Below are positions 4,754 through 31,446 of a stretch of DNA of 64,000 nt, one piece after another. A program made the translations under genes and the position numbers. This DNA is from Pseudomonas sp. M30-35 (lineage in GTDB: Bacteria > Pseudomonadota > Gammaproteobacteria > Pseudomonadales > Pseudomonadaceae): positions 744,001 through 808,000 of the forward strand of contig NZ_CP020892.1 in assembly GCF_002163625.1 (NCBI RefSeq), given 5' to 3'. Positions within the stretch are counted from its first letter, which is position 1; every line of letters begins with the position of its first letter. The notes under the pieces were generated by a model. It did no database searches. It was given only the letters and a program-made list of their open reading frames with translations, and was not told the origin of the DNA.

Positions 4754-5116
4754 CTAGAGCAGGCTGTCACCGAGGTCGAGTTTTTGCTGGTCGCGGTCGA
4801 ACTTCCTGTCCTGGACCCGCTTCAGCAACTTATAGATGGCGTTCTCGGTGAGGTTGTATTCCACTGAAAGCGCATGATGGTTGTTGCCCTTAAACTTCGA
4901 GAGAATCACTAGGTCCCGCTTACTCAGCTTGAAGCGATGATCCTTCGGAATGCAGATAGTCGACCCTGCCCAGGTCTGGGATAGGTGATCGGCCACGGCG
5001 TTTCCAGCCTGCTCGGTGATATCAGACTCAATGCCGTGCTCCTTGAGCACTTCCGCAACATGATCAGCTATATCGCTGAGCAGTTCGTGCCTTTTATCTG
5101 CCATTGCCGATGACAT
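4754..5116 (-). CDS. mor: Mor/C family transcription activator
   Basis: A 120-residue activator of later phage transcription. The C-terminal half (IPKDHRFKLSKRDLVILSKF, then EYNLTENAIYKLLKRV) matches the HTH part of Mu Mor and C, which bind dyad sites just upstream of phage promoters that lack a good -35. The start overlaps the previous stop (TAATG). Only one Mor/C protein is visible in this phage, so it may do both jobs. The dyads at 17350, 25508 and 31369 are its likely targets (inference). Confidence 0.85.
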   Translation of the reverse strand: MSSAMADKRHELLSDIADHVAEVLKEHGIESDITEQAGNAVADHLSQTWAGSTICIPKDHRFKLSKRDLVILSKFKGNNHHALSVEYNLTENAIYKLLKRVQDRKFDRDQQKLDLGDSLL

Positions 5117-15653: not shown

Positions 15654-15673
15654 TGGTAGATATTTATGAACCT
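15654..15673. promoter_or_regulatory. Repressor operator O2, overlapping the repressor start codon
   Basis: TGGTAGATATTTATGAACCT matches the reverse complement of O1 at most positions. It covers the ATG (15666-15668) of the repressor, which suggests autoregulation at high repressor levels. Confidence 0.6.
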
Positions 15674-17202: not shown

Positions 17203-17236
17203 AAAAAGGCACCTAACTCAGGTGCCTTTTTTCATT
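17203..17236 (+). terminator. Terminator of the repressor/moron unit
   Basis: AAAAAGGCACCT-AACTC-AGGTGCCTTTTTT, a strong stem with a T-run, 12 bases after the lipoprotein gene. It separates lysogenic transcription from the late region. Confidence 0.9.
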
Positions 17237-17349: not shown

Positions 17350-17373
17350 TATTTTTGCCCCGTCAAAATTACT
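17350..17373 (+). promoter_or_regulatory. Late promoter/activator element, copy 1 (lysis and packaging unit)
   Basis: TATTTTTGCC-CC-GTCAAAATTACT, one of three nearly identical elements. The core is the dyad TTTTGCC-N2-GKCAAAA; CAAAAT could serve as the -10. It is followed by a CG-rich run. It stands before the first late gene at 17467. Proposed as the Mor-type activator target. Confidence 0.6.
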
Positions 17374-17466
17374 CCGCGTGCGCGTGAGGCGATGATTGCA
17401 GTGCCTGCTTAAACAGGCCTGACCATCAGCCGGCCAAGGATGGCCACCTCACACGCGGAGAGTTTC

Positions 17467-17766
17467 ATGTCTAATTCCTGCACGCCTCGTTCCCGCCTGC
17501 CGCGTATGACGCTGTGGACGATCATCACTCTTTGTTTATTGCTGCTGCTGGCGTTTGTCCGCCCTGAGCAGTTGCAAGTGATTCTGTACAAATCCCTTTT
17601 GGTTACGCTCGCAGCGGTGATCGGCTACTGGATTGACCGTTCGTTGTTTCCCTATGTCCAAGATCGCCCGCACCAATGCATTGGTGGCATCCACATCGTG
17701 GGAGCCTGGTTGCGTCGAGCACTGATTGTGCTGGCGTGCGTCCTCGGCATGACGCTGGGGCTTTAG
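17467..17766 (+). CDS. Putative holin
   Basis: A 99-residue protein with hydrophobic segments at about residues 15-31 (WTIITLCLLLLLAFV), 38-56 (LYKSLLVTLAAVIGYWI) and 78-99 (LRRALIVLACVLGMTLGL). It lies immediately before the transglycosylase gene, so it is probably the pore-former for lysis. The ATG at 17467 has GGAGAG upstream; an earlier in-frame ATG lacks one. The family match is by context and membrane layout. Confidence 0.75.
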   Translation: MSNSCTPRSRLPRMTLWTIITLCLLLLLAFVRPEQLQVILYKSLLVTLAAVIGYWIDRSLFPYVQDRPHQCIGGIHIVGAWLRRALIVLACVLGMTLGL

Positions 17767-17768
17767 TC

Positions 17769-18449
17769 ATGCGCACTGTCATTTTGTGCTTCCTGGAGTC
17801 GGTGGTCAGTAGCTCACTGGGCTGGCTGCTCTTGGGCTTGGCCCTGCTGGTTGTGAGCTGCCAACCGGCCTACGCCGACACTATCCCCCGTGAAGCTGAG
17901 CAATATCGTCGCACCTTGGTACGTGCTGCACATGCTGAATGGGGGCTTGATGCGCCTATTGCCACACTTGCAGCTCAAGTACATCAAGAGAGCGCCTGGC
18001 GGGCCAATGCTCGATCACCCGTTGGGGCTCAGGGGTTAGCGCAATTTATGCCCGGTACCAGTGCGTGGATGGCTGAGTTGTACCCCAAAACCCTGGGCGC
18101 CAACCAACCTTTCAATCCCGGCTGGGCGTTACGGGCCATGGTTGTATATGACCGTTGGCTGTATGCACGAAACCAGACCGCCGCCAGTGAGTGTGATCGC
18201 TGGGCGTTTGTCCTATCTGCCTATAACGGCGGATTGGGTTGGGTGATTCGCGACCGGAAACTGGCATCGGCAAAAGGCGCAGATCAGCTGGTCTGGTTTG
18301 ATTCTGTCGAGCGGCACAATGCGGGCCGTTCGACTGGCAACTTCCGTGAAAACCGCCATTACCCGCGCGTGATTCTTCTGCGCTGGGAGCCGATGTATGT
18401 GGCTGCCGGTTGGGGCTCTGGCGTTTGCTCTGAGAGGTACTCCCTATGA
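17769..18449 (+). CDS. Endolysin: soluble lytic transglycosylase (SLT) domain protein
   Basis: A 226-residue murein-degrading enzyme. It has an N-terminal hydrophobic export signal (about residues 14-36, ending PAYA) and an SLT core with catalytic Glu74 in HQESAWRANA, then SPVGAQGLAQFMPGT and LSAYNGGLGW. It starts 2 bases after the holin stop. A Sec-type or signal-anchor leader means lysis may depend on the holin for activation rather than export. Confidence 0.9.
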   Translation: MRTVILCFLESVVSSSLGWLLLGLALLVVSCQPAYADTIPREAEQYRRTLVRAAHAEWGLDAPIATLAAQVHQESAWRANARSPVGAQGLAQFMPGTSAWMAELYPKTLGANQPFNPGWALRAMVVYDRWLYARNQTAASECDRWAFVLSAYNGGLGWVIRDRKLASAKGADQLVWFDSVERHNAGRSTGNFRENRHYPRVILLRWEPMYVAAGWGSGVCSERYSL

Positions 18450-18640
18450 TCCGCTTACGCCTTAGTTGTTTGGCTTTGGGTTTGGCATCTGCACTCAGTG
18501 TTTCTGCCGCAACTCGTAACTGGCTAGCCCAACCTGAGCTGTATTGCTCCCCAATTCCGCGCCCTCGCCATGGGAAAACAGGTGTGCTTAAAGCTAAGCG
18601 CGCTGCGCGCAAGTACAAGCGCCGCCGGTGTCAGCAATGA
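18446..18640 (+). CDS. Small lysis-cassette protein, unknown
   Basis: A 64-residue protein with a signal-peptide-like start (MIRLRLSCLALGLASALSVS) and a strongly basic tail (KAKRAARKYKRRR). It overlaps the endolysin stop and the Rz-like start by 4 bases each. It may be a secreted or membrane-bound lysis helper. Function unknown. Confidence 0.6.
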   Translation: MIRLRLSCLALGLASALSVSAATRNWLAQPELYCSPIPRPRHGKTGVLKAKRAARKYKRRRCQQ

Positions 18641-19059
18641 TCAATCGTATCGTGTTGTCGTTATGTGCCATCACGGGTCTAGGTGTTGTGTTGTTTGTTG
18701 TGTACCAACTCGGTGCGAGCAATGCCTACGACCTGGGGTATGCCGAGGGCACAAGTGCTGCGAAAGACAGTTGCCAAGCCGCCCAGTTGGGTGCGCTGCA
18801 GGCCGTGATCGACAGCACGGTGAGTCTCACAGTAGCGGCCAACACCGCTAGCCAAGAGCTAGGCAAGACCATCAGCGCTCGCAAACAGGCGGACGCCAAT
18901 ACAACAAAGGAGATCCGTGATGCGCTCGCATTTACTGCGCCTCAGCGCGCTGGCTGTGTGTTTGACGCTAGCGTCATGCAGCAGCTCGACACCGCGCGGC
19001 ATCGAGCCGCCGAGGCCGCTGCCAGCGGAGTACGCAGCACAGTGCCCGCCGCCCGTTGA
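18637..19059 (+). CDS. Rz-like inner-membrane spanin
   Basis: A 140-residue protein with one N-terminal membrane helix (IVLSLCAITGLGVVLFVVYQ) and a periplasmic helical domain, as for i-spanins. The start at 18637 overlaps the preceding stop. The gene for an outer-membrane lipoprotein partner starts inside it in another frame, the usual arrangement for Rz/Rz1. Confidence 0.75.
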   Translation: MINRIVLSLCAITGLGVVLFVVYQLGASNAYDLGYAEGTSAAKDSCQAAQLGALQAVIDSTVSLTVAANTASQELGKTISARKQADANTTKEIRDALAFTAPQRAGCVFDASVMQQLDTARHRAAEAAASGVRSTVPAAR

Positions 19060-19177
19060 ACAGGCCAGCAACAGCGCCGATGCAGCCGCTGTGGCTTTGA
19101 AAGAACTCTATGACCAGTACGGTCTGTGTGCCGGCCGGTTGGTTGACCTGGTGAATTACCTGCAGGAGCAGCGCTGA
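18920..19177 (+). CDS. Rz1-like outer-membrane spanin lipoprotein
   Basis: An 85-residue lipoprotein with lipobox TLASC (Cys20) and a proline-rich segment (PRGIEPPRPLPAEYAAQCPP). It overlaps the Rz-like gene by 140 bases in the +1 frame. With that protein it should fuse inner and outer membranes in the last step of lysis. Confidence 0.8.
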   Translation: MRSHLLRLSALAVCLTLASCSSSTPRGIEPPRPLPAEYAAQCPPPVEQASNSADAAAVALKELYDQYGLCAGRLVDLVNYLQEQR

Positions 19178-19497
19178 TGGATTGGGACTTCGTGACCAGG
19201 GTTGGTCAGTTCATTTTCACGGTAGGGGTCGGCCTTTACACCGTAATGGCCTCGCGCCGTTCGGCATCTACCGCCGAAGCCCAGGCGCTGGATAAGCGCC
19301 TGAACAATCATCACACCCGTATCGTCACTGTTGAACAGCAGTTACTGCATCTGCCGGATGCCAAACAAATGTCCGAGTTAGCCGGTGATATGAAGGCTGT
19401 TAAGGCTGAGCTTGCGGGGGTAGCTCGTGAACTGGCCCCTTTGGCCAGAGCGCTGGATCGGATTAATGACTACCTGCTAAACGCGAGGCCCCAATGA
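19177..19497 (+). CDS. DUF2730 family phage protein (Mu gp25-like)
   Basis: A 106-residue protein: one membrane helix (about residues 8-25, RVGQFIFTVGVGLYTVMA) followed by a coiled coil (AEAQALDKRLNNHHTRIVTV, then LAGDMKAVKAELAGVA). It is the conserved small protein between lysis and packaging genes in Mu-like phages. Overlaps by 1 base upstream and 4 bases downstream. Confidence 0.8.
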   Translation: MDWDFVTRVGQFIFTVGVGLYTVMASRRSASTAEAQALDKRLNNHHTRIVTVEQQLLHLPDAKQMSELAGDMKAVKAELAGVARELAPLARALDRINDYLLNARPQ

Positions 19498-19790
19498 GCA
19501 CTCCCTTTTCTGATTTCCTGCGCCAGGACCAACGCCTGGTTATGTTGCGCATCCTCTCTGAGGTGCCGCAGTACCGCGCTAACTCATCCGTGATCGCCAG
19601 TCTGCTTGGTGAGTTCGGCCACCATCCGAGCCGCGACCAAGTGAAGACTGAACTGGTATGGCTTGGCGACCAGGGCCTTGTGAAGGTTGAGGATATTGGC
19701 TCTGTACTCGTGGTCACTTTGATTGAACGCGGTGCTGATGTAGCGGCTGGTCGCTCCTCGGTGCCGGGTGTCAGTAAGCCGAGGCCTTGA
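19494..19790 (+). CDS. Mu gp26-like ArsR-type winged-helix phage protein
   Basis: A 98-residue protein of the family found between gp25 and gp27 in Mu-like phages. DQRLVMLRILSEVPQYRANS followed by GHHPSRDQVKTELVWLGDQG is a winged-HTH pattern. It is probably structural or packaging-related DNA binding; there is no established function. Confidence 0.75.
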   Translation: MSTPFSDFLRQDQRLVMLRILSEVPQYRANSSVIASLLGEFGHHPSRDQVKTELVWLGDQGLVKVEDIGSVLVVTLIERGADVAAGRSSVPGVSKPRP

Positions 19791-19792
19791 AT

Positions 19793-20341
19793 ATGGCACG
19801 CAAGAGCAGCATCGACAAAGCGCGTGATGAGGTTCGAGAAGTTATCCACCGTATGTTGAGGGATAACCGGCTGACGCTCGACGAGATGAAAGAGGTACTG
19901 GGAGAGCGCTTCCCTGAGGAAGTAACGCCAAGCCGCACGGCACTGCATCGTTACAGGCAGGGGTTTTCCGAGATCATGCGTAGCCATCGCGAGATTCAGG
20001 TTGCGAGTGAGGCGCTGGTCGCTGAGCTGGGCGAAAACTTCGACGACAAGAGCGGTGCGCTTCTGGCCCAAGCAGTGACAACCCTCGCCACACGGGCATC
20101 TCACGATGCATTGGCAGAGGATAAAACTGAAATTGGTGACGTGCTCGACCTTGCCCGTGCAGCCAAATATGCCCAAGAAACCCGAGCGCTGAGCCTGAAA
20201 GAACGCCAAGTGGTTGCCAAAGAGGCACGCGAACGGCTCATCAAAGAGCAGGAAGAGCGCCTGGAAGAAATGCGTGGCAGCGACGGTATGAGCGAGCAGC
20301 TTGAAGATCGCATTCGTCGCGTACTGATGGGGAAAGCCTGA
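19793..20341 (+). CDS. gp27-like DUF3486 protein, probable small terminase subunit
   Basis: A 182-residue protein directly before the large terminase. The N-terminal HTH-like part MARKSSIDKARDEVREVIHR and TPSRTALHRYRQGFSEIM match the Mu gp27 family. The C-terminal coiled coil (AKEARERLIKEQEERLEEMR) fits an oligomerisation region. I start at the ATG 19793, although an in-frame TTG lies 6 bases earlier. Confidence 0.8.
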   Translation: MARKSSIDKARDEVREVIHRMLRDNRLTLDEMKEVLGERFPEEVTPSRTALHRYRQGFSEIMRSHREIQVASEALVAELGENFDDKSGALLAQAVTTLATRASHDALAEDKTEIGDVLDLARAAKYAQETRALSLKERQVVAKEARERLIKEQEERLEEMRGSDGMSEQLEDRIRRVLMGKA

Positions 20342-21999
20342 TGACACAGACAGAGGCCAAGCCACTCAAAGCGCTAAGTGCACCCCGTAAAATCGACCTC
20401 GCCGCCGAAATGGAACTGCATGGCGTAGTAGTGCCGCAAGACATGGAAGACGCTATCCCTGGTGGCGAAGCGGTGTTTCTGCCGTACCAGCAGCGTTGGT
20501 TCGATGACACCAGCCAGATCATGATTGCCGAGAAAAGTCGACGGACCGGACTGACTTGGGCCGAGGCCGGTCGCAACGTGATCAATGGCGCCAAGCCTCG
20601 CCGCCGTGGCGGCTGCAACACGTTCTATGTGGGCAGTAAGCAAGAGATGGCGCTTGAGTACATCGCCGCTTGCGCGCTGTTCGCCAAGGCGTTCAACGAG
20701 CTTGCTCAGGCCGATGTTTACGAGCAAACCTTCTGGGATGACGGCAAGAAGGAAGAGATCCTGGCCTACATGATCCGCTTCCCGAAAAGCGGTTTTAAGA
20801 TCCAGGCACTTAGTTCTCGACCAAGTAACTTGCGCGGTCTGCAGGGCGACGTGGTGATCGACGAAGCGGCATTCCATGAATCCTTGGAAGAGCTGCTTAA
20901 GGCGGCTCTAGCACTCACCATGTGGGGCAATAAGGTTCGGTTGATAAGCACCCACAACAGCGTCGACAACGCTTTCAACAGTTACATCCAAGACGCTCGC
21001 GAGGGGCGCAAGGACTACAGCATTCACCGCATCACGCTTGACGAGGCGATTGCCCAAGGGCTGTACAAGCGCATCTGCTATGTCACCGGACAGGATTGGT
21101 CACCCGAGGCTGAGAAAGAGTGGCGCGATAAGCTCTATAAGAACGCTCCGAACATCGAAAGCGCCGATGAGGAATATGGCTGTGTGCCGAAGAAATCAGG
21201 CGGTGCTTATCTCTCGCGCGTGCTTATTGAACAGGCGATGGTGCTCGATCACTCAATCCGCATTTACCGCTACGAAGCCCCGGAAGGATTCGAGCAGTGG
21301 ACGCCTGAGATGCGTGAGGCTGAAGTTAAGGCATGGTGCGAGGAGAACCTAGCCCCCGAACTGGCCCGACTTAACCCACGCAACCGCCATACCTTCGGCG
21401 AAGACTTTGCCCGCCGTGGCGACCTGACAGTGTTCACGCCACTGCAGATCAACCCGATGTTGCGCAAGCGTGTGCCCTTTGAAGTTGAGCTGCGCAACCT
21501 TACCTACGAAGCTCAGCGGCAGATCATGTTCTTTATCTGCGATCGCCTGCCGCGCCTTAGTGGTCTGGCGTTCGACGCCACAGGTAATGGCGGATATTTG
21601 GCCGAGCAAGCTGCTTTGCGTTACGGCGCGGGCTTGGTCGACCAGGTGCAACTGAACTTGGCCTGGTATGCGCTCTGGATGCCCAAACTCAAAGGCGAGC
21701 TTGAGGCTTTCAACCTGGAGATCGCCCGTCATCAAACGCGCCTCGATGACCTGCTGTCGATCAAGGTCGATAAGGGTGTGCCGGTAATCGACAAAGGCCG
21801 CACCAAGGATCTGCAATCACAAGACAGCAAGGCCAAGCGCCACGGCGACAGTGCTGTGTCACTGGTGATGGCCGTGCGCGCTTCATTCATGGAGGGCGGT
21901 GCCATTGAGTTTACCGCCGTGCCGCGTCACAGCCGGGGCTTCGATAACACAGACCCTGACGACAACGACATCGAATTACCGGAGCCTTCCGCATGGTGA
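20341..21999 (+). CDS. Terminase large subunit (Mu gp28-like)
   Basis: A 552-residue packaging ATPase/nuclease. It has the modified Walker A AEKSRRTGLTW (residues 63-73), Walker B VVIDEAA (171-177), and the nuclease-part acidic segments FDATGNGGYLAEQ and RHGDSAVSLVMAV near the C-terminus. Overlaps upstream by 1 base and downstream by 7. It packages phage DNA by headful from the transposed ends. Confidence 0.92.
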   Translation: MTQTEAKPLKALSAPRKIDLAAEMELHGVVVPQDMEDAIPGGEAVFLPYQQRWFDDTSQIMIAEKSRRTGLTWAEAGRNVINGAKPRRRGGCNTFYVGSKQEMALEYIAACALFAKAFNELAQADVYEQTFWDDGKKEEILAYMIRFPKSGFKIQALSSRPSNLRGLQGDVVIDEAAFHESLEELLKAALALTMWGNKVRLISTHNSVDNAFNSYIQDAREGRKDYSIHRITLDEAIAQGLYKRICYVTGQDWSPEAEKEWRDKLYKNAPNIESADEEYGCVPKKSGGAYLSRVLIEQAMVLDHSIRIYRYEAPEGFEQWTPEMREAEVKAWCEENLAPELARLNPRNRHTFGEDFARRGDLTVFTPLQINPMLRKRVPFEVELRNLTYEAQRQIMFFICDRLPRLSGLAFDATGNGGYLAEQAALRYGAGLVDQVQLNLAWYALWMPKLKGELEAFNLEIARHQTRLDDLLSIKVDKGVPVIDKGRTKDLQSQDSKAKRHGDSAVSLVMAVRASFMEGGAIEFTAVPRHSRGFDNTDPDDNDIELPEPSAW

Positions 22000-23558
22000 C
22001 TACATCCCGCATTCTTGGGCCAGATGGCCAGCCGATTCAGATGGCTGAGATTCGGGCGGCGCAGACCGCACACCTGACCAGCCTGCACCACGAGGTGGGC
22101 AACCACCCCTCGCGTGGCCTGACGCCGAGCAAGCTGGCGCAGATCCTCGACGCCGCGGAGCATGGTGATGTGGTGGCGCAGTACGAGCTGTTTGAAGACA
22201 TTGAGGAGAAAGATGGGCACGTCTTTGCCGAGATGGACAAGCGCCGCCGCGCGGTGTCTCAACTCGATTGGCAGATCGTTCCACCGGATAAACCCACCGC
22301 CAAAGAGAAGGCTGCGACCGCTGCGCTGCAGGCGATGTTGGCGGGGCTTGATGATTTTGAGCTGATGCTGTTCGACGTCACCGATGCCATCGGCAAAGGT
22401 TTTGCGTGTCTGGAGTTTGATGGCTGGCACCGGGTAGATGGTGACTGGCTGCCCAGGGCCATCGATTATCGCCCGCAAACCTGGTTCCAACTGGTGCGCG
22501 GCACCCGCCAGGAGATCCGTCTGCGTGGTGCCAGTGGCGGTGAGGCCCTGCAGCCGTTCGGCTGGATCACCCACATTCACAAAGCCAAAAGCGGCTATCT
22601 GGAACGCTCTGCGCTGTTCCGCGTGCTGGTGTGGCCATACCTGTTCAAGAACTACAGCGTGGGCGATCTAGCTGAGTTCCTAGAGATCTACGGTATCCCG
22701 ATGCGCGTGGGCAAATACCCAGGCGGCGCCACTGAGAAAGAGAAACTCACTCTGCTGCGTGCCTTGGCCCAGCTCGGCCACAGCGCCGCTGGCATCATCC
22801 CTATCGGCATGGAGATGGAATTTCTCAACGCAGCCGAGGGCGACCCGGCCGCGTTCAAACTGATGATCGACTGGTGCGAACGCACTCAGAGCAAGGCGAT
22901 TTTGGGCGGCACGCTCACCAGCGGTACCGGCGACGGCACCAACACCAACGCCCTGGGTAACGTACACAACGAAGTACGTCTTGACCTTCGGGACTCAGAT
23001 GCCAAACAGTTGGCCGCGACCATCAGCCGTGACCTGATCTATCCAATCGCGGTGCTCAATGGCCTAGCCGATAGCTGGAAGCGCTGCCCAAGGCTAGTGT
23101 TCCAAACTCAAGAGCCCGAGGATCTGAAAGCCTATGCCGCTTCACTTCCGGGGCTGGTCAAGATGGGTTTCAAGATCCCGCGCCAGTGGGCTCAAGAGAA
23201 GGTGGCCATCCCCGAACCTGCCGAGGGTGAGGAGATCCTGCAGACTGCTGCACCCGTCGCGCGGCCAGTCCCCGACGAACCACCTGCAGGCCGTGCGGTG
23301 GCCACTGCACAACAAGCAGCCCGCACTGCAGCTGATCGCCTGGACGATGATCTGCAGCCACTCACAGACCAGTGGATCAGCCGTATACGCCAACTGGTCG
23401 AGCAATCCGAAAGTCTGGAGCAGATACGCGATGGCCTGGCCGAGCTGCTGCCGGATATGAGCATCGAACAGTACGCCGAGGCCATGGCACAGGCGCTGGC
23501 TGCTGCTGCCCTGCAGGGCCGTTACGAGATCATGCAGGAGGCCGCTGGTGGCCGTTAG
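21993..23558 (+). CDS. Portal protein (DUF935, Mu gp29-like)
   Basis: A 521-residue head-vertex protein of the DUF935 family. HRVDGDWLPRAIDYRPQTWF, PYLFKNYSVGDLAEFLEIYG and GMEMEFLNAAEGDPAAFKLM are conserved blocks. It forms the DNA entry and exit channel. Overlaps the terminase by 7 bases and the head morphogenesis gene by 11. Confidence 0.93.
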   Translation: MVTTSRILGPDGQPIQMAEIRAAQTAHLTSLHHEVGNHPSRGLTPSKLAQILDAAEHGDVVAQYELFEDIEEKDGHVFAEMDKRRRAVSQLDWQIVPPDKPTAKEKAATAALQAMLAGLDDFELMLFDVTDAIGKGFACLEFDGWHRVDGDWLPRAIDYRPQTWFQLVRGTRQEIRLRGASGGEALQPFGWITHIHKAKSGYLERSALFRVLVWPYLFKNYSVGDLAEFLEIYGIPMRVGKYPGGATEKEKLTLLRALAQLGHSAAGIIPIGMEMEFLNAAEGDPAAFKLMIDWCERTQSKAILGGTLTSGTGDGTNTNALGNVHNEVRLDLRDSDAKQLAATISRDLIYPIAVLNGLADSWKRCPRLVFQTQEPEDLKAYAASLPGLVKMGFKIPRQWAQEKVAIPEPAEGEEILQTAAPVARPVPDEPPAGRAVATAQQAARTAADRLDDDLQPLTDQWISRIRQLVEQSESLEQIRDGLAELLPDMSIEQYAEAMAQALAAAALQGRYEIMQEAAGGR

Positions 23559-24777
23559 TGCGACCTCGTTGCCGTTCCGTGAGCAGAACGAGTTTCTGCG
23601 GCGCAAACTCAATCTGCCCACCAATGGTTGGACTGATGTATACGGTCGTGAGCATGACTTTGCGTTTGTGGTGGCCGGTGCGAATCGTGACGACCTGGTG
23701 GCTGATTTTCATCAAGCTGTGCAGCGGGCCATCGAGGGCGGTACCACCCTAGAGCAGTTTCGCAAGGACTTCGACCGCATCGTCGCCAAGCACGGCTGGA
23801 GCTACAACGGAGGCCGCAACTGGCGCTCGCGGGTTATCTACGAAACCAACATGCGCAGTAGCTACATGGCAGGTCGTTATGAGCAGCTGATGGCAGTGCG
23901 CGAGGAGCGTCCCTATTGGCAGTACTTGCACAGTGACGCTGTTGAGCACCCGCGCCCGGAGCACGAAGCCTGGAACGGCATGGTGCTGCGCTGGGATGAT
24001 CCATGGTGGCAGCACCATTTCCCGATTAACGCCTGGGGCTGCCAGTGTAGCGTGCGGGCACTGAGCTATGACGATCTGGTGCGCATGGGTAAAACCGGCC
24101 CAGACACCGCCCCGGCGATCGTTTGGGAGCAGCGCACAATCGGCCAGCGTAGCCAGCAGGGGCCGCGCACGGTTCAGGTTCCACAGGGTATTGATCCAGG
24201 CTTCGAGTATGTTCCTGGCCGCTCGCGCTTGGAAAGCCAGGTGCCGGTACCGCGAGCAGGTGAAGAGCTGATCGCTTCAGCCACGCCAGGGCTGCCCAAC
24301 CGACTGGCTCCTGACTCACTGCCGGAGCCCAAGGCGATCGATCCTGCTAGCTTGCCACCTGCAGGTATGAGCGATGCCGAGTATGCCCGCCGGGCACTCG
24401 ATGCGTTCGGCGCCCAACTCGATGCGGCTGAGCTAGTCACTGACGTGCTTGGCGAACGCATCACAGTCGGCCCCACAATGTTTGCTCAACCGTCTGGCCC
24501 GCTGGTGTTGCAGGACAAAGGCGAGATGCTGCCGTTACTGGCTGAAACGCTATTACAGCCTGATGAGGTATGGACGCGCCTGGAGTACTCCAACCAGTTG
24601 CAGAAATCGCAGGTGCTGCGCCGTTACTTGGGCCGCTTCAACCTGGGTGAGCAGTTGACTCAGTTGGTGGTAGTTGAGCTGGCTGGTAATGCCTGGAGCT
24701 GGGCTATCGAGGCTGATAGTCCAACCATCACCCAACTGTTGCGCCAGGGCGTGCGCTTATATCGGCGTGAGGACTGA
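23548..24777 (+). CDS. Head morphogenesis protein (MuF, gp30-like) with probable nuclease-fold C-terminus
   Basis: A 409-residue minor capsid protein. Residues about 50-175 form the SPP1 gp7/MuF domain (TNMRSSYMAGRYEQLMAVRE, PINAWGCQCSVRALSYDDL). After a Pro-rich linker, residues about 285-409 (ELVTDVLGERITVGPTMF, VWTRLEYSNQLQKSQVLRRY) resemble the PBECR (Barnase-EndoU-ColicinE5/D-RelE) domain fused to MuF proteins. The start is GTG at 23548, with GCAGGAGG upstream. The C-terminal call is by eye. Confidence 0.85.
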   Translation: MAVSATSLPFREQNEFLRRKLNLPTNGWTDVYGREHDFAFVVAGANRDDLVADFHQAVQRAIEGGTTLEQFRKDFDRIVAKHGWSYNGGRNWRSRVIYETNMRSSYMAGRYEQLMAVREERPYWQYLHSDAVEHPRPEHEAWNGMVLRWDDPWWQHHFPINAWGCQCSVRALSYDDLVRMGKTGPDTAPAIVWEQRTIGQRSQQGPRTVQVPQGIDPGFEYVPGRSRLESQVPVPRAGEELIASATPGLPNRLAPDSLPEPKAIDPASLPPAGMSDAEYARRALDAFGAQLDAAELVTDVLGERITVGPTMFAQPSGPLVLQDKGEMLPLLAETLLQPDEVWTRLEYSNQLQKSQVLRRYLGRFNLGEQLTQLVVVELAGNAWSWAIEADSPTITQLLRQGVRLYRRED

Positions 24778-24779
24778 GC

Positions 24780-25349
24780 ATGGCCGGCGCCACTCTAGAG
24801 TTTGACGCCACAGGGGCGCTGGCCATCATCAACGAGGCCGCAGCTGCTGTTGCTGATCCCAAGCCGATGCTGCGCAATATCGGTGAGTACTTGTTGATTG
24901 CCCACGATCGACGCTTTGCCAGTCAAAGCTCGCCAGATGGCACACCCTGGCAGGCACTCTCGCCGGCATACCTCAAACGCAAGAAGAAAAACCGCGACAA
25001 GATCCTCACGCTCGATGGCTTTCTGAAAAATACATTGCGCTACCAGGTAGGCGATAACGACCTGGTGTTTGGTACTAACCGTATCTACGGCGCAATACAG
25101 CACTTTGGCGGCAGCATCGACATTGCTGCGCGCAGCCAGCAGGCCTATTTTCGTCAGGACAGAAAGACAGGCGATGTAGGCAACCTGTTTGTCAGCAAGC
25201 GCAAAAGCAATTTTTCGCAGTGGGTTACTCTGGGTGCGTACACCATTCAGATTCCTTCACGCCCTTGGCTGGGTACCAGTGAGGATGACAACTACGCCAT
25301 CGCTGGCATCGCCATGCGCTACTTGATGCCCAATTCTGCCGAAAGTTGA
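24780..25349 (+). CDS. Virion morphogenesis protein (Mu gpG-like)
   Basis: A 189-residue protein of the phage virion morphogenesis family (Mu gpG, P2 gpS type), which acts in tail or head completion. Conserved blocks: FASQSSPDGTPWQALSPAYL, YGAIQHFGGSIDI and PSRPWLGTSEDD. It starts 2 bases after the MuF gene and ends the first late unit, before a hairpin. Confidence 0.85.
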   Translation: MAGATLEFDATGALAIINEAAAAVADPKPMLRNIGEYLLIAHDRRFASQSSPDGTPWQALSPAYLKRKKKNRDKILTLDGFLKNTLRYQVGDNDLVFGTNRIYGAIQHFGGSIDIAARSQQAYFRQDRKTGDVGNLFVSKRKSNFSQWVTLGAYTIQIPSRPWLGTSEDDNYAIAGIAMRYLMPNSAES

Positions 25350-25370
25350 AAGCAGCCCTGTGAGGCGTTT

Positions 25371-25394
25371 TAAGGGCCATAGGCGCGGCCCTTA
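25371..25394 (+). terminator. Hairpin ending the first late unit
   Basis: TAAGGGCC (25371-25378) / GGCCCTTA (25387-25394), a perfect 8-base stem, without a strong T-run after it. It lies 21 bases after the gpG stop. Confidence 0.5.
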
Positions 25395-25507
25395 TATCTA
25401 TGTAACCCAGTTCGACGTGCTGATGGCGTTTATAAACACGCCAAGTGGCCATTGTTGCAAACCCTGCAGACGATATTTGCAGCTGAGCGCCTAAACCCAT
25501 CCCGGAT

Positions 25508-25531
25508 TATTTTTGCCTCGGCAAAATTACT
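25508..25531 (+). promoter_or_regulatory. Late promoter/activator element, copy 2 (head unit)
   Basis: TATTTTTGCC-TC-GGCAAAATTACT, the most symmetric copy: TTTTGCC-TC-GGCAAAA is a perfect palindrome. It is followed by CGCGCGCG and then the protease gene start at 25562. Otherwise 25350-25561 holds only a hairpin. Confidence 0.65.
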
Positions 25532-25561
25532 CTCGCGCGCGCATTCGCCATCCTCGGCGAC

Positions 25562-26665
25562 ATGAACAGAAAACGTCTCCCTCTCGCCGTTGCACTCGCC
25601 GCCTGCAGTTTCTCGCTGGGCGCGGTGGCGGACGACAACACCATCTGGCTGCAGGTGACCCCTGCGGGCAACTTCACTCCGTCCGATGGTCGCGAGATTA
25701 ACGTCGCCTCCTGGTACATCGACAGCGCAGTCGCTGAGAAGGTGATTGCCAGGTTCAGCGCCCGCCGAAACAAGCGCGTTCTGGACTACGAGCATCAGAC
25801 CCTTCTCAAAGAAAAGAACGGTCAGCCTGCACCCGCTGCTGGTTGGATTCAGGAGTTGGCTTGGCGTGAAGGCCAAGGCCTGTTTGCAAAAGCAAAGCTC
25901 ACTGCGCGTGCAGCTGAGTACATCGCCAACGAGGAATATCTCTATTTCTCCCCAGTCTTCCTCTATCACCCCACGACCGGCGAAGTGCTGGACGTGCAGA
26001 TGGGGGCGCTCACCAACGACCCAGCAATCGACAACATGGAGGAACTCAGCCTCCGTGCAGCCGCTTCGTTCGGGCTTGAAATTGAAACCGAAGAGGAAAT
26101 CCCCGTGAACCCATTGCTGCTGGCGATGATCGCCGCCCTCGGCCTTGCCGAGAACACCACTGAAGAGCAGGCAGTCGCTGCGCTTTCTGCTCATACCGCC
26201 AACCTACGCAAAGCCCTCGGCCTGGATGACAAGGCCAATGGCGAAGCAATGGTGGCAGCTTGCACCGGCCTCAAGGCCAAGGCGGCTGTCAGCGTTGACC
26301 CTTCTAAGTTTGTACCGGTATCTGCTGTCGCCGGTTTGCAGGCTGATCTCGCCGCACTGACCGCTCGCTTGGGCGAACGCGACGAGGAAGACCTTGATAT
26401 TCAGGTCAAGGCCGCTCTTGGGGACGGACGTTTGCACAAGAGCATGGAGAAATGGGCACGCGAACTGGGTAAAGAAAATCGTGCCTCCCTGACTGCTTAC
26501 CTGAATGAGTCGGCACCCATCGCGGCGCTGACCCGTAGCCAAACCGAAGGTAAACCACCGGTTGCCGATGAAAAAACCGGGCTCACCCAAGCTGAGCAAG
26601 CAATGTGCTCGCACATGGGCCTGACCGCTGAACAGTTCAAGGCCGCTAAAGCCGAGGAGCAATAA
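25562..26665 (+). CDS. I: Head maturation protease/scaffold (Mu gpI-like)
   Basis: A 367-residue protein. The N-terminal two-thirds matches Mu gpI-type prohead protease (TPSDGREINVASWYIDSAVA, LDYEHQTLLKEKNGQPAPAA, EEYLYFSPVFLY), and the C-terminal third is a helical scaffold. The first 24 residues resemble a signal peptide, which is unusual for a cytoplasmic protease. An internal GTG at 26105 with a ribosome site probably yields a separate scaffold. The start follows late element 2. Confidence 0.88.
   Translation: MNRKRLPLAVALAACSFSLGAVADDNTIWLQVTPAGNFTPSDGREINVASWYIDSAVAEKVIARFSARRNKRVLDYEHQTLLKEKNGQPAPAAGWIQELAWREGQGLFAKAKLTARAAEYIANEEYLYFSPVFLYHPTTGEVLDVQMGALTNDPAIDNMEELSLRAAASFGLEIETEEEIPVNPLLLAMIAALGLAENTTEEQAVAALSAHTANLRKALGLDDKANGEAMVAACTGLKAKAAVSVDPSKFVPVSAVAGLQADLAALTARLGERDEEDLDIQVKAALGDGRLHKSMEKWARELGKENRASLTAYLNESAPIAALTRSQTEGKPPVADEKTGLTQAEQAMCSHMGLTAEQFKAAKAEEQ
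26105..26665 (+). CDS. Probable nested scaffold protein (Mu gpZ-like) in the protease frame
   Basis: A GTG at 26105 preceded by GAGGAAAT (26092-26099) would start a 186-residue, helix-rich product (VNPLLLAMIAALGLAENTTE...) identical to the C-terminal half of the protease. In Mu, scaffold Z is made this way from inside I. Inferred from position and ribosome site. Confidence 0.5.
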   Translation: MNPLLLAMIAALGLAENTTEEQAVAALSAHTANLRKALGLDDKANGEAMVAACTGLKAKAAVSVDPSKFVPVSAVAGLQADLAALTARLGERDEEDLDIQVKAALGDGRLHKSMEKWARELGKENRASLTAYLNESAPIAALTRSQTEGKPPVADEKTGLTQAEQAMCSHMGLTAEQFKAAKAEEQ

Positions 26666-26668
26666 GCC

Positions 26669-27076
26669 ATGACTGCGCTTACAAAAGACCGAAACACCGT
26701 GCGCCGTGATGGCGTGCAGCACTCAGACCCGGTGGATGGCGCAACACGTATTTATGCCGGTTCTTTGGTGTGTCTGAATGCTTCCGGCAATGCTGTGCCG
26801 GGCGCGCTCTCTGACGCGCTTAAAGCTCGTGGCGTGGCGCAAGAGCAAGTAGACAACCGCGACGGAGTGGCTGGCGATCTGCGTATCGAAACCCGCCGTG
26901 GCGTGTTCCCGTTTGCCAACAGCACCACCACTGACGAAATCACCCGTGCCGATATCGGTGCTGATGCCTACATCGTCGACGACCAGACGGTTGCCAAAAC
27001 CTCTGCCACCAGCACCCGATCGGTTGCCGGCATCATCCGCGATGTGGATGAAGCTGGCGTCTGGGTCGAAATCTAA
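26669..27076 (+). CDS. Capsid cement/decoration-like protein (DUF2190-like)
   Basis: A 135-residue, mostly beta protein between scaffold and major head protein (TRIYAGSLVCLNASGNAVPG, TTTDEITRADIGADAYIVDD, SVAGIIRDVDEAGVWVEI). This is the pattern of small capsid-stabilising proteins in this position. Starts 3 bases after the scaffold stop. Confidence 0.7.
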   Translation: MTALTKDRNTVRRDGVQHSDPVDGATRIYAGSLVCLNASGNAVPGALSDALKARGVAQEQVDNRDGVAGDLRIETRRGVFPFANSTTTDEITRADIGADAYIVDDQTVAKTSATSTRSVAGIIRDVDEAGVWVEI

Positions 27077-27090
27077 GGAGCAAGACTCAG

Positions 27091-27981
27091 ATGATCATTA
27101 ACCGCGCAAACTTGAATATGCTGTTCACGGGCTACAAAGCCTCTTTCCAGAACGCATTCGCTGGCATTAAGCCGGACTTCATGCCTTTTACTATGGAAGT
27201 GCCTTCGGTCAACTCAGTCGAGCAATATGCCTGGCTGGGCAACAGCACTGTATTTCGCGAGTGGCTAGGCGATCGAGTCATCCAGAATCTGGCTCTGCAC
27301 GACTACAGCATCAAGAACAAATCGTTCGAGAACACTGTTGGCGTCAGTCGCGAGAGCATCGAAGATGACAGCTACGGTGTGTTCACTCCGTTGATGGGCC
27401 AATTAGGCCAGGACTCAGCCAACCACCCATCCACGCTGATCTATGACCTGATTTCCGCTGGTTTTTCCAGTAAGTGCTACGACGGCCAGTATTTCTTCGA
27501 CACCGATCACCCGGTGACGAACAAAAACGGCAATGAAGTGAGCATGAGCAACTTCCAGGGCGGTACAGGTACCCCTTGGTACCTGCTGGATACCAGTCGC
27601 GTAATGAAGCCGGTGATCCTGCAGAAGCGCAAAAACTACAACTTCGTCTCAATGGATAAAGAGACGGACGACAACGTGTTCATGCGTAAAGAGTACGTCT
27701 ACGGAGTAGATGCACGTTTGAATGCGGGTTACGGCCTTTGGCAGCTTGCCCACAGCTCGAAGGAAACGCTTGATGCGGCGGCCTTCAATGATGCGTTTGC
27801 CTCTATGCAATCCATGGTTGGCGATCGCGGCAAAAAGTTAGGCATCCAGCCCAAACTTCTGGTTGTTCCGGCTAGCTTGCGCGATGTAGCGCTTGAGATC
27901 GTCAAGGCCGAACGTGGCGCCAACGGTGCTACCAACATCAACCGCAACGCTGTGGACGTGCTCGTCACGCCGTGGCTGTAA
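27091..27981 (+). CDS. T: Major head subunit (Mu gpT-like)
   Basis: A 296-residue capsid protein of the Mu gpT family. YSIKNKSFENTVGVSRESIE, GQYFFDTDHPV and LLVVPASLRDVALEIVKAER are typical blocks, and the AAGGAG ribosome site is strong. It assembles the icosahedral shell on the scaffold. Confidence 0.93.
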   Translation: MIINRANLNMLFTGYKASFQNAFAGIKPDFMPFTMEVPSVNSVEQYAWLGNSTVFREWLGDRVIQNLALHDYSIKNKSFENTVGVSRESIEDDSYGVFTPLMGQLGQDSANHPSTLIYDLISAGFSSKCYDGQYFFDTDHPVTNKNGNEVSMSNFQGGTGTPWYLLDTSRVMKPVILQKRKNYNFVSMDKETDDNVFMRKEYVYGVDARLNAGYGLWQLAHSSKETLDAAAFNDAFASMQSMVGDRGKKLGIQPKLLVVPASLRDVALEIVKAERGANGATNINRNAVDVLVTPWL

Positions 27982-27992
27982 GGGGGTGATGT

Positions 27993-28757
27993 ATGCCACG
28001 TAAAACACCGAATAAGGGCGCTCAAGCGCCCGCAACTAAAGCAGATAAGGCAGCCACTGCGGCTGCCTCTGCTACCGCCGAACAGCTGGACACCCAGCCG
28101 GCGGGTTCTACAGATAGCGCGGCTTCGCCAGCCGCTGATTCCATACAAACCGTGAGCGGAGCGTCAACTGGTCAGGAGACCGGTGATAAGGGGCAGGATG
28201 CCCCGACTGTTCTCATTGTTGGCGATCTGGGTGCTGGGCAGTACATCGAGGCCATCATTGATGGCGATGTGAATGTGTTGCCGCTCGCCGAACTTAACGA
28301 GCCGTTGTTGCGCGAGGTCGGTAAGTTCGTCGAGATCGAGCAGTACGATGTGTTGCCCCCAGAGCAACTGATTTTGCAGATCGAGCAGAAGGTTGGTATC
28401 GAACCGCTGCCGTACCCATCTGGTGTGTCAGATGGTGATGATCCGCTGGCGGCTGCGCTGAATGAACTGAGCGTCGATAAAACCGCCAATACGTCCGTCA
28501 TCGACGCAGCTGCTTCTGCCGCGCTCACCGATGGTGAAGGTGCAGACAACGCTCTTGACGACGACGGCGATATCGAAGGCCTTTGGATTACCGCGACTTC
28601 CGAGCAGGGTTTTCGTCGTTGCGGTTTTCGCTTTACCCGTGAGGGCTTTGCCATTGCACTGTCTGCCCTGACCAAGGCGCAGATCGAGCAGCTGGAGGGC
28701 GAGCCCAATCTCAAGGTTGAGCGTGGCATCTTCAGCGGCCGAGCCGGAGCGCAATAA
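27993..28757 (+). CDS. HI1506-like phage structural protein
   Basis: A 254-residue protein. The N-terminal ~70 residues are Ala/Thr/Ser-rich and disordered. A middle acidic part follows, and the C-terminal WITATSEQGFRRCGFRFTRE followed by LEGEPNLKVERG matches the HI1506-type protein that follows the head gene in Mu-like prophages. The precise role is unknown. Confidence 0.7.
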   Translation: MPRKTPNKGAQAPATKADKAATAAASATAEQLDTQPAGSTDSAASPAADSIQTVSGASTGQETGDKGQDAPTVLIVGDLGAGQYIEAIIDGDVNVLPLAELNEPLLREVGKFVEIEQYDVLPPEQLILQIEQKVGIEPLPYPSGVSDGDDPLAAALNELSVDKTANTSVIDAAASAALTDGEGADNALDDDGDIEGLWITATSEQGFRRCGFRFTREGFAIALSALTKAQIEQLEGEPNLKVERGIFSGRAGAQ

Positions 28758-28759
28758 CC

Positions 28760-29275
28760 ATGCAATACATCACCGCCGACGACCTGGCCGAACGCCCTGG
28801 TGCACGTGAGCTGGCCCAAGTGGCCACGCCTGATAACGCACGCCAGATCGCTACTGACCTCATGGAGGCCACCCTGCGCGGTGGCGACCGCAGTGCTTGG
28901 CCAGTTGACCAGGTCGTCGTGGCGGATGATGCCTTGCAACGTATTCAAGATGCAGTCACCGAGGCAGAAAGTCTTATTGATGGTTATCTCGCACGGCGCA
29001 GTTATCCGCTACCACTGAGCCCTGTACCCAAGCTTGTCACCGGCTGGGTCCGCGATATCGCCCGTTACCTGCTGCACAAGGATCGCGGCGGTAAAGAGGA
29101 TTCCGACCCAATCGTGCGCAACTACAAAGATGCGATGAAGTTCCTGGGGCTGATCGCCAAAGGTGAGTTCAGCCTGGGTGCCGAAGACCCTGTGACCAAC
29201 AACCCGGATCAGTTGGATGTGCGGTTTGAATCCGCACCGAGTGTGTTTGATCGCACAAGCCGGAGACACTTCTGA
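28760..29275 (+). CDS. DUF1320 head-completion protein (Mu gp36-like)
   Basis: A 171-residue, helical protein typical of the head-tail connector position (YITADDLAERPGARELAQVA; DAVTEAESLIDGYLARRSYP; VRDIARYLLHKDRGGKEDSD). Starts 2 bases after the previous gene and overlaps the next by 1. Confidence 0.88.
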   Translation: MQYITADDLAERPGARELAQVATPDNARQIATDLMEATLRGGDRSAWPVDQVVVADDALQRIQDAVTEAESLIDGYLARRSYPLPLSPVPKLVTGWVRDIARYLLHKDRGGKEDSDPIVRNYKDAMKFLGLIAKGEFSLGAEDPVTNNPDQLDVRFESAPSVFDRTSRRHF

Positions 29276-29715
29276 TGAGTTATGCGCCGCTGGATACCTC
29301 ACTGATTGAGCAACGCCTGCGTGACCTAGTGCCGGCGTTCGAAGAGGTTAACGGTGCCGCCGCTTACCACACTCTCAAGGGTCTGCAGGACTTTCGCACT
29401 GGCACTTGTTATGTGGTGCTGGCAGCTGAGAGCAACCCTGCCGCCGACGGTGGACAACCGCGCCGCAAGGCAGCTGCCTCTGCCGTGTTTGGTGTGGTGA
29501 TTTGCACTCGTAACTACCGCGACCCGCATGCCGAGGCGGCAAAAGATGATGCCATTATTTTCGCTGGCAAGGCACGTGAGGCCTTGATCGGCTGGACACC
29601 AGGCAACTGGTCAAATTGCACCTGGCTCAAAGGTCAAGTGCTCGACAGTGATCAAGATCGCGTGCTCTGGATCGACGTTTACCACACCACCCATGTACTA
29701 GGGGGCAACCCGTGA
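29275..29715 (+). CDS. gp37-like tail-terminator/neck protein
   Basis: A 146-residue alpha/beta protein in the Mu gp37 position (IEQRLRDLVPAFEEVNGAAA; ASAVFGVVICTRNYRDPHAE). It is probably the tail terminator or a head-tail joining protein. Assignment is by order and fold-like pattern. Confidence 0.75.
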   Translation: MSYAPLDTSLIEQRLRDLVPAFEEVNGAAAYHTLKGLQDFRTGTCYVVLAAESNPAADGGQPRRKAAASAVFGVVICTRNYRDPHAEAAKDDAIIFAGKAREALIGWTPGNWSNCTWLKGQVLDSDQDRVLWIDVYHTTHVLGGNP

Positions 29716-29921
29716 ACAAGCAAACCGATATCGCCGTTAAACCTGCTGCCAAAGCCGAGACATTTAAGGAAAAGCTGCTCAAGGCGCACACCCATCGTGG
29801 CGAGAAATTGCCAGCGGGTAAGACCATTGAAGTGACCGCACCCGAACGCGACTTTCTGCGCGGCAAAGGTGTGATCGCAACCCCAACCACAACGGATGCT
29901 GCCGCTCTGGCCGCTGAATAA
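29712..29921 (+). CDS. Small conserved phage protein
   Basis: A 69-residue protein (AETFKEKLLKAHTHRGEKLP; VTAPERDFLRGKGVIA), of the type found just before the tail tube gene in Mu-like phages. Overlaps the previous gene by 4 bases. Function unknown. Confidence 0.7.
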   Translation: MNKQTDIAVKPAAKAETFKEKLLKAHTHRGEKLPAGKTIEVTAPERDFLRGKGVIATPTTTDAAALAAE

Positions 29922-29932
29922 CGAGGTGCACC

Positions 29933-30703
29933 ATGTCTGAGAAATATTACTTCGGCCAAGGCAAATTGTGGATCGCCGAGATCCTCGCCGGCGGCGCGCT
30001 TGGCCCTTGGGTTTGGCTGGGCGATGTTTCTGAATTGTCCGGTCAGGGCAGTGAAACGCCTGTACAACACCGAGAATCCTTCAGCGGCACCAATGCCTTG
30101 GTGCGGGAGTTCTCCCGCGAACTTGGCATGGCCTGGAGCGCAACTTTGCACCAGCTTGATGTCGACAACGTCGGTCGTTTCACCCGCTCGAAAATGAGCG
30201 AGACCATCGGCGGTACCGTAACCGGTGAAGAGCTACCCAACCCGGTGGCGGACGGTGACCTTATTGCACTCGATAACATGAACGTCAGCGACCTGGTGCT
30301 CACTGACAGCCTGACGCCAACACCTGCAACTTTGGAGCTTGGCGTCCACTATGATTACGATGTGTTTGGTGATATCGAAATTCTGACCCTGCCGACCTCT
30401 CCAGCACCGACAGAACCTCTGTTAGCTGCGTATTCTCATGGGGCCACCAAGCAGGCTGCCTTGTTAGCCGGTAGCCGCAAGAACTATGCGCTGAAATACA
30501 AGGGCATCAACTTGGCCGAAAACGAAGCGCCAATTCTTGTTGAGCTGTACAAGGTCAGCGCAGGCCTGTTGCAGCAGTTGGCTTTGATCACCAGTGGTAA
30601 CCAGTTGGCCGGTTCGCCAGTTACATTCACCACATTATTGGACACCAGCAAGCCAGCCAGTGGTGACCTCGGCCAGTTTGGTCGCTTTGTTGAGCTTGCC
30701 TGA
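29933..30703 (+). CDS. Major tail tube protein
   Basis: A 256-residue beta-rich protein (KYYFGQGKLWIAEILAGGAL; LGVHYDYDVFGDIEILTLPT; KNYALKYKGINLAENEAPIL). It precedes the tail chaperone and tape measure as expected for the tube subunit of a long non-contractile tail. No sheath gene is present, so the phage is a siphovirus. Confidence 0.8.
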   Translation: MSEKYYFGQGKLWIAEILAGGALGPWVWLGDVSELSGQGSETPVQHRESFSGTNALVREFSRELGMAWSATLHQLDVDNVGRFTRSKMSETIGGTVTGEELPNPVADGDLIALDNMNVSDLVLTDSLTPTPATLELGVHYDYDVFGDIEILTLPTSPAPTEPLLAAYSHGATKQAALLAGSRKNYALKYKGINLAENEAPILVELYKVSAGLLQQLALITSGNQLAGSPVTFTTLLDTSKPASGDLGQFGRFVELA

Positions 30704-30705
30704 CC

Positions 30706-31212
30706 ATGGCCAGGCGTAAGAGAGGTGTAATCAAGGCATCTGAGCCAGCAGCAGTTGAAGGTGCTGATGATCTGCAGGTGCTGCACCCCAACCTGGCGGC
30801 CGACCTTAATGGCCGCCAGGTAATGGTGCGCGAATACGGGTTTGTTGAAGGCTTGCAGCTGCAAGCCGAACTGCAGCCATTTCTCAATGGGTTATATGAG
30901 CTTGCGCAGGCCGGTACAACTCCATCACTTGATGAGATTTTGGTGCTGATTGGTCGCCACACTGACATTGTGATGGGCGCGATGGCCATCTCTGCCGACG
31001 TGACCGTCGATGAACTCAAAGGCCTGAAAAGCCAGATTGAAGGCCGCACACTGTTGATGAAGTGGTGGACCGCTAACGGCCCTTTTTTCTGGCGCTGCGT
31101 CCACGACCGGATACTGGGCGAGCGCGAGCTGGCCAAACGTCGCGGTGGGCAGATATCTACGCCCAGCTCATCCGCGCCGGCTACGGAGACGTCGAATCCA
31201 TCGGGCGAATGA
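30706..31212 (+). CDS. Tail assembly chaperone (G-like product)
   Basis: A 168-residue protein between tail tube and tape measure, helical with the conserved-looking core MVREYGFVEGLQLQAELQPF. The last 25 residues (GGQISTPSSSAPATETSNPS) are low-complexity, as though past a frameshift point. A second frame in -1 phase (31077-31352) encodes a plausible extension, the lambda G/GT layout. Confidence 0.75.
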   Translation: MARRKRGVIKASEPAAVEGADDLQVLHPNLAADLNGRQVMVREYGFVEGLQLQAELQPFLNGLYELAQAGTTPSLDEILVLIGRHTDIVMGAMAISADVTVDELKGLKSQIEGRTLLMKWWTANGPFFWRCVHDRILGERELAKRRGGQISTPSSSAPATETSNPSGE

Positions 31213-31352
31213 CGCAGCGCCAAATACTGTTGTTGTTCGAGGCTGAGTTAAGGGCACGCCGCCAGGAGCGTGCCGAGGCGTTGATTGATACCAACAATGC
31301 CTTCGCTGGCGGCGAAACTGCCAATAAACATCTCAAAGACCTGACCTCATAA
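31077..31352 (+). CDS. -1 frameshift extension of the tail chaperone (GT-like)
   Basis: The -1 frame is open from 31077 to the stop at 31350-31352. It contains the natural-looking sequences WADIYAQLIRAGYGDVES and MTQRQILLLFEAELRARRQE, followed by TNNAFAGGETANKHLKDLTS. A possible slip site T-TTT-TTC lies at 31083-31089, at the start of the open window. An ATG at 31209 could also start a 47-residue protein overlapping the first stop. The frameshift is inferred. Confidence 0.6.
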   Translation, partial: RPFFLALRPRPDTGRARAGQTSRWADIYAQLIRAGYGDVESIGRMTQRQILLLFEAELRARRQERAEALIDTNNAFAGGETANKHLKDLTS

Positions 31353-31375
31353 CCGCCTTCGGGCGGTTTATTTTT
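31351..31375 (+). terminator. Terminator of the head unit
   Basis: AACCGCC-TTCG-GGCGGTT hairpin followed by TATTTTT. It overlaps the stop of the frameshift extension, and its T-run is part of late element 3. Confidence 0.7.
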
Positions 31376-31392
31376 GCCTCGTCAAAATTACT
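31369..31392 (+). promoter_or_regulatory. Late promoter/activator element, copy 3 (tail unit)
   Basis: TATTTTTGCC-TC-GTCAAAATTACT, differing from copy 2 at one base. It is followed by CGCGCGCGCG (31401-31410) and the tape measure start at 31447. The preceding unit's terminator runs into it. Confidence 0.62.
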
Positions 31393-31446
31393 TGGCATCA
31401 CGCGCGCGCGAACATGACGGCATCCCTACCAGCCTGATGCCAGCCA

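Follow-up and report, generated by a model that had tools for sequence, protein, structure and literature searches.

Three matching dyads ahead of the late units of a B3-type prophage: probable Mor operators whose letters follow those of their activator

Introduction

A 64,000-nucleotide stretch of the chromosome of Pseudomonas sp. M30-35 (contig NZ_CP020892.1, positions 744,001 to 808,000; hereafter the window) holds a B3-type transposable prophage with a leftward early operon and rightward late genes. Three matching dyads of the form TTTTGCC-N2-GKCAAAA stand before its lysis, head and tail units, which raises the question of what they are for and which protein reads them. An earlier note, made from the letters of the window, took them for late promoters with the single Mor-type activator of the prophage as ligand, and drew a parallel with the C-dependent promoters Plys, PI and PP of phage Mu. 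We conclude that the three dyads are very probably the operators of three late promoters activated by Mor; that part of the note agrees with the build of the operators, the spacing to the −10 hexamer, the way in which sites and Mor co-vary, and the late RNA clusters, three in number, reported for the related phage Fc02. The parallel with the C system of Mu holds in part, as discussed below.

Results and discussion

Position and build of the elements

The pattern TATTTTTGCCYCGKCAAAATTACT is found at positions 17350, 25508 and 31369 of the window, in each case on the + strand. As the form TTTTGCCNCGKCAAAATTACT, the element has three exact matches in the window and none in 100 dinucleotide shuffles, which bears out the positions first given for it. 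When three mismatches are allowed, the middle copy, a near-palindrome, is matched on its reverse strand too, and this is the sole addition. The earlier note had seen no further copy, and this now extends to the host genome of 4,926,954 bp, in which the three exact matches of the 21-bp core TTTTGCCNNGKCAAAANTACT are those of the window and the backwards control gave none. A shorter core, TTTTGCCNNGKCAAAA, with three mismatches allowed, gave 15 matches against 11.96 expected, which is not above chance; the case for the elements is therefore that of the long exact match. Of the genes that follow, holin and endolysin lie past the first site, head protease I past the second and the tape measure past the third.

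The note had also described an alternating CG run after each dyad. The CG-rich run is real, but CGCGCGCG itself is at chance level (six matches in the window against 5.34 expected) and was rejected as a separate element. The compiled relatives retain the run at their lysis and tail sites, except for the lysis site of JBD25; at the head site it is no general feature.

All three sites read TTTTG-N6-CAAAA with the spacer CCYCGK, and are thus 16-bp dyads (5+6+5) as in the definition of the Mu Pm site. A −10-like hexamer lies exactly 22 bp past the dyad at each of the three (Table 1); the pattern.A...T fits 4.2% of positions in the late region of the window. A sigma-70 promoter scan of the 301–351 bases around each site returned no promoters, and there is no good −35. 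In the portions of the Mu work covered here, the Mor site is described as a 16-bp sequence in which a GC-rich hexanucleotide separates two inverted repeats of 5 bp; the site is centred at −43.5 and spans −51 to −36 (PMC4390567, PMC4287176). The window sites share with Pm as described there the 16-bp dyad, the 5-bp repeats, the GC-rich 6-bp spacer, the want of a recognisable −35 and the −10 downstream. In the Mu sequence a dyad of the same build lies at 9173–9188 and is followed at the same 22-bp offset by TATCCT; this dyad is presumably Pm.

Corresponding sites in related phages

The earlier note had proposed a motif search in relatives of B3 and D3112 at the same three positions, and would have taken absence of the element from close relatives as evidence against the promoters. 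The letters themselves are absent from B3, JBD25 and D3112, and the exact window pattern occurs in two of 298 family genomes, its own included, so that a literal search is a poor test. In B3 and JBD25, however, a dyad specific to each phage stands in the same places, before the holin, the head protease and the tape measure. Because the places and not the letters are kept, the proposed test, taken literally, would wrongly reject the promoters.

To compare loci by place, the 25 bases at the protease site were taken from each of 29 loci and the best other matches were sought within the same locus. Of the B3-type loci, 20 cover the full region (several of these are near-identical), and in 18 of them the two best other matches were the lysis and tail positions. 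Among the other loci, Komp_PAO1_1 has three further copies, Bise two, and D3112, L044 and phiSHP3 one clear copy each; Lsp-JY19 has one weak copy, Mu none and two fragments one each. The window pattern itself led to 21 IMG/VR records, of which eight hold exactly three copies (at most three mismatches), 12, many of them fragments, hold one or two, and one holds none. The congener genome G294 has six copies, that is, two triads. A DNA search for phage records with the late region or the lysis site of the window found no matches.

The −10 hexamer was assessed over 32 non-redundant sites, with near-duplicates collapsed and phage G374 omitted (its dyad register is unsure). An A is found in 88% of these at offset 23 past the dyad and a T in 88% at offset 27, which are positions 2 and 6 of a hexamer spanning offsets 22–27. 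The search for lysis and tail copies in the relatives was bounded by set distances, and its query extended 8 bases beyond the dyad; offsets 22–27 lie outside that query and their conservation is not circular, whereas the conservation at offsets 0–7 (AC, −35-like) is partly so because the query covered these bases.

A second group of phages, related by Mor to Komp_PAO1_1 and KP12, has an unrelated dyad, TTTAA-N6-TTAAA, with the same spacing. Of its 18 loci (G405, with 352 bases only, was omitted), 12 have exactly three oriented sites, one has two and two have one. The pattern.A...T stands at the same offset in all 40 of 40 sites, and the reversed-pattern control had no match in 354,516 bases.

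Short repeats of other kinds were also seen. The more distant phages Bise (L053), D3112 (L027), L044 and phiSHP3 (L047), with two or three copies each, have other short repeats upstream of their late genes (AACTAAA.., GTTGAACCCCTTCC.. and GTGCAAATGACC), which are possibly operators of the same kind.

Mor and its co-variation with the sites

The product of the mor gene scores 111.2 bits against Pfam family PF08765 (curated cut-off 24.9) and is the one match to this family in the whole host genome. It is related to the solved Mor of Mu (1rr7_A; E 4.4e-5 over residues 12–110) and also to entry 9l0y. An AlphaFold model built with 34 sequences has a pLDDT of 82.9; a single-sequence model was poor (46.8) and was set aside. 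The best Foldseek matches of the model are Mor and C of Mu, the initiation complexes 9l0x and 9l0y among them; overall, the structures superpose modestly. The predicted last helix spans residues 91–109 and has Asn92 (codon 4841–4843) as its second residue; it follows a helix at 80–86, an arrangement expected of a helix-turn-helix.

Across 16 phages with Mor proteins less than 95% identical, we compared site distances with those of Mor and of the neighbouring head protease by permutation. With protease distance held constant, the distances between sites follow those between Mor proteins (partial r 0.48, p 0.0002); with Mor held, they do not follow those of the protease (0.03, p 0.37). G374 was retained in this set despite its unsure register; without it the values are 0.64 (p 0.0002) for Mor and −0.09 (p 0.73) for the protease. 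The first sets, of 14 and 11 phages, had given site–Mor values of 0.62 and 0.45.

Three mosaic phages separate the two proteins individually. G320 has a protease 76% and a Mor 27% identical to those of the window, and its sites are B3-like. G313 has a B3-like protease and a Mor 31% identical to that of the window but with the helix TEN, and its sites are window-like. The third, L202, combines a protease 70% identical to that of B3 with a Mor 68% identical to that of the window; its sites are window-like. The letters of the sites go with Mor and not with the neighbouring head protease.

Base 4 of the half-site was then set against window residue 92 in 19 phages, 12 from the first sets and seven of the 19 second-set records with a Mor match (24 records were searched, five of which lack Mor). 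We omitted L187, L188, L189, L192, L194, L196, L199 and L200, whose Mor is 99–100% identical to that of PM105 or B3; L183, on which the script anchored wrongly and whose visible site resembles that of JBD25; and L207, L208 and L216, which have other helices and a dyad register that could not be fixed. L184 (more than 95% identical in Mor to another phage used), L202 and G063 enter this table and not the 16-phage correlation. With Asn at residue 92 (six phages), base 4 of the left half-site is T in 18 of 18 sites, and with Asp (eight phages) it is C in 22 of 22 left and 22 of 22 right half-sites. Ser (three phages) goes with C in eight and A in one of the left half-sites and with G in nine right ones, and Gly (two phages) with a mixed base 4. 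The rule was formed on the first phages, to which G063, G374, G338 and G662 had been added, and then met the second set, in which the four Asp records and the one Asn record used obey it, although L184 and L202 in this check have Mor proteins more than 95% identical to those of other phages used. Asn is able to read A and Asp to read C; a contact of residue 92 with base 4 of the half-site is proposed.

Other Mor-like proteins were noted in passing. Close to the lysis site of each of its two prophages, G294 has a further Mor-like match, a weak one of 44.6 bits (G294:C1:7452-7673 and 1959302-1959523). Many of the 398 congener genomes have a Mu C-like protein with the tail EPDLFG and no head protease in the stretch fetched, and there is a large set of weak PF08765 matches among them.

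Weighing of the Mor assignment

Several observations weigh against the assignment or limit it. Three of the 18 second-group loci have no TTTAA-N6-TTAAA site. Of the two further copies in PM105 (L049) and in L030, one is level with background; the sites of PM105, a Gly phage, match poorly, and those of G374 (also Gly), L207, L208 and L216 are other dyads of unsure register. The permutation test ignores the tree, and related phages are not independent. Right half-sites of the Asn type have T at base 4 in 11 and G in seven of 18, and several phages fail the simple residue-92 rule. In the portion of the Fc02 study covered, the content of the third late cluster is unnamed and the clusters are described as sequential (PMC9936078), which a shared switch alone does not explain; their timing would therefore be set by something beyond it.

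Three other readings of the dyads were considered. They could be operators of another regulator, either a product of the repressor region from 15666 on or Ner, which would silence the late genes in the lysogen, with the late promoters nearby and Mor acting elsewhere. Dyads can be repressor sites, and the prophage has a CII/repressor-like gene at 15666. Yet the build and the −10 spacing match those of published Mor sites, and the letters track Mor, with base 4 tracking one Mor residue even in G313, whose Mor is so distant from that of the window; we regard this reading as very improbable. A role of the dyads at the RNA level, as terminators or attenuators, we find harder still to credit. The tail element does start within a terminator's T-tract, and an RNA copy of the dyad could pair, but in two of the copies the GKC arm pairs incompletely with GCC, which makes for a weak stem, and the terminator-like hairpins beside the lysis and tail sites lie outside the dyads, with none at the head site; nor does this reading predict a −10 at fixed offset or co-variation with Mor. 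Equally hard to credit is a role of the dyads as linkers between modules, maintained so that phages can recombine: they do lie at functional borders and modules are exchanged, as the mosaics G320, G313 and L202 show, but a linker should be common to the phages that exchange modules, whereas the letters differ between alike modules and track Mor, and no −10 at fixed offset is predicted.

Operators read by Mor are thus our preferred interpretation of the dyads. Mor, whose gene closes the leftward early operon, would bind each 16-bp dyad and recruit or activate the host sigma-70 RNA polymerase, which would use the −10-like hexamer 22 bp downstream where a good −35 is wanting. In this way the three late units (lysis/packaging, head and tail) would be turned on directly by one activator, with no intermediate such as the C protein of Mu.

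Comparison with known systems

The system would work as Mor and Pm do in Mu, and the window activator belongs by profile to the same family as Mor of Mu. Mor of Mu, however, acts at one middle promoter, whereas the window sites head three late units and differ in the letters of the half-sites. Like Mu with its Plys, PI, PP and Pmom, as these are given in the portions of the literature covered (PMC4461284, PMC4287176), the prophage has putative activator sites of the dyad type at several late promoters; lysis and I each follow one of these. It is to this extent that the parallel drawn in the earlier note stands. In build the sites are those of Mor at Pm, no second gene of the Mor/C family was found in the host genome, the third site is before the tape measure and apparently not before P (no search was made for a P homologue), and no mom-type fourth site was seen. 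With no C-like gene found and the tape measure behind its third promoter, the prophage does not have the C-dependent system of Mu.

Another close published account is that of the B3-type phage Fc02 (Beetrevirus), with which the prophage shares its gene order. In the passages covered, RNA-Seq places mor last in the early operon and finds three rightward late clusters after induction, one with holin/endolysin and packaging genes and one with mainly virion structure genes, bounded by a rho-independent terminator (PMC9936078). No late promoter or operator is named in those passages, and no word of the main text begins with 'late'. Fc02 has a triad of its own, before its holin, protease and tape measure. 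Promoters have also been predicted for the D3112-like phages PaMx73 and H70 (PMC4378225); these belong to another phage group, and the passages covered contain no Mor operator or triad. A description of the triad is not among the literature matches listed, and an earlier publication may exist.

The head transcript

The ATG of the protease lies 42.5 or 43.5 bp from the centre of the dyad in 24 of 24 loci compiled, a count that takes in near-duplicates and one unsure register. Since the centre of the Mu site is at −43.5, the +1 would fall on the A of the protease ATG (25562 in the window) or within one base of it, and the head mRNA of the B3-type group is predicted to be leaderless, starting on or next to this codon. 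The Shine–Dalgarno pairing of the protease is among the weakest of the late genes, with equal or weaker pairing in none of 29 in Fc02, none of 29 in PM105, one of 28 in JBD25 and two of 26 in B3; in the window, three of 17 other late-gene starts (uncurated) are as weak or weaker. The second group keeps the offset of the −10 but has its likely start codon about 30 bases further downstream, so a leaderless head mRNA is not general.

Leader hairpins at the 5' end of the lysis and tail transcripts are strong in B3, but over the loci compared the mean z values against shuffles are −0.47 (n = 23) and −0.30 (n = 23), which does not support them as a general feature; a fold of two sequences added nothing to this question. 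The protease start has less structure than shuffles (mean z +1.35, n = 24).

Some records of related phages differ from what we find. The annotated protease of B3 (L026, NC_006548; 19857–19889), B3ORF36, has its start at a CTG, position 19857, past the operator and short of the −10; relatives keep a different start, which in B3 is the ATG at 19887. In Komp_PAO1_1 (L052, PQ287647; 5112–7241) a hypothetical protein on the − strand is annotated over a stretch in which tblastn places the head protease on the + strand, beginning inside the operator. The tblastn protease frame of D3112 at about 19795–19830 has no nearby in-frame start; the ATG matching relatives lies in another frame, so that a frame break or sequence error is likely. 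Klebsiella phage KP12 clone KP12_2 (L050, OM835952) is filed under Vequintavirinae, and its genes are those of a Mu-like phage.

Table 1
Features of the prophage in window coordinates; operator roles and transcript starts are predictions.
Feature	Position	Strand	Remark
mor, Mor-family activator (PF08765)	4754..5116	−	Last gene of leftward early operon
Terminator-like hairpin	17203..17231	+	Upstream of lysis promoter
Lysis-site 24-mer TATTTTTGCCCCGTCAAAATTACT	17350-17373	+	
Lysis/packaging operator TTTTG-CCCCGT-CAAAA	17353..17368	+	Whole element 17350-17373
−10-like hexamer GATGAT	17391..17396	+	22 bp past lysis operator; predicted +1 near 17404
Lysis and packaging unit, from holin on	17440..25349	+	Extent per list of open reading frames; holin start provisional
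Head-site 24-mer TATTTTTGCCTCGGCAAAATTACT	25508-25531	+	
Head operator TTTTG-CCTCGG-CAAAA	25511..25526	+	Whole element 25508-25531
−10-like hexamer CATCCT	25549..25554	+	22 bp past head operator; predicted +1 25562, A of protease ATG
Head maturation protease I, first head-unit gene	25562..26665	+	Unit about 25562-31212; leaderless mRNA predicted
Terminator-like hairpin closing head unit	31351..31368	+	T tail runs into tail operator
Tail-site 24-mer TATTTTTGCCTCGTCAAAATTACT	31369-31392	+	
Tail operator TTTTG-CCTCGT-CAAAA	31372..31387	+	Whole element 31369-31392
−10-like hexamer GAACAT	31410..31415	+	22 bp past tail operator; predicted +1 near 31423
Tape measure gene, first tail-unit gene	31447..34890	+	

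Concluding remarks

What distinguishes the system would be single-tier control of three late promoters by Mor, with operators that change together with it. A wider proposal, on which our confidence is evenly divided, is that the sites form a changeable password for late transcription: residue 92 of the Mor recognition helix (Asn or Asp) would set base 4 of the half-site (T or C), all late promoters would follow, Mor and its operators would behave as one unit while head modules are swapped, and the head mRNA of the B3-type group would be leaderless.

Knowledge of activation by Mor and C has so far rested on phage Mu; in the present prophage all late units would be under the direct control of a single activator. 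The many natural matched sets of activator and operators, with their fixed spacing, would make the recognition rule of the family, of which Mu complexes are solved (PDB entries 9l0x and 9l0y), testable with natural pairs. Such a rule would also allow late units to be marked in B3-type genomes and compared with the published RNA-Seq of Fc02.

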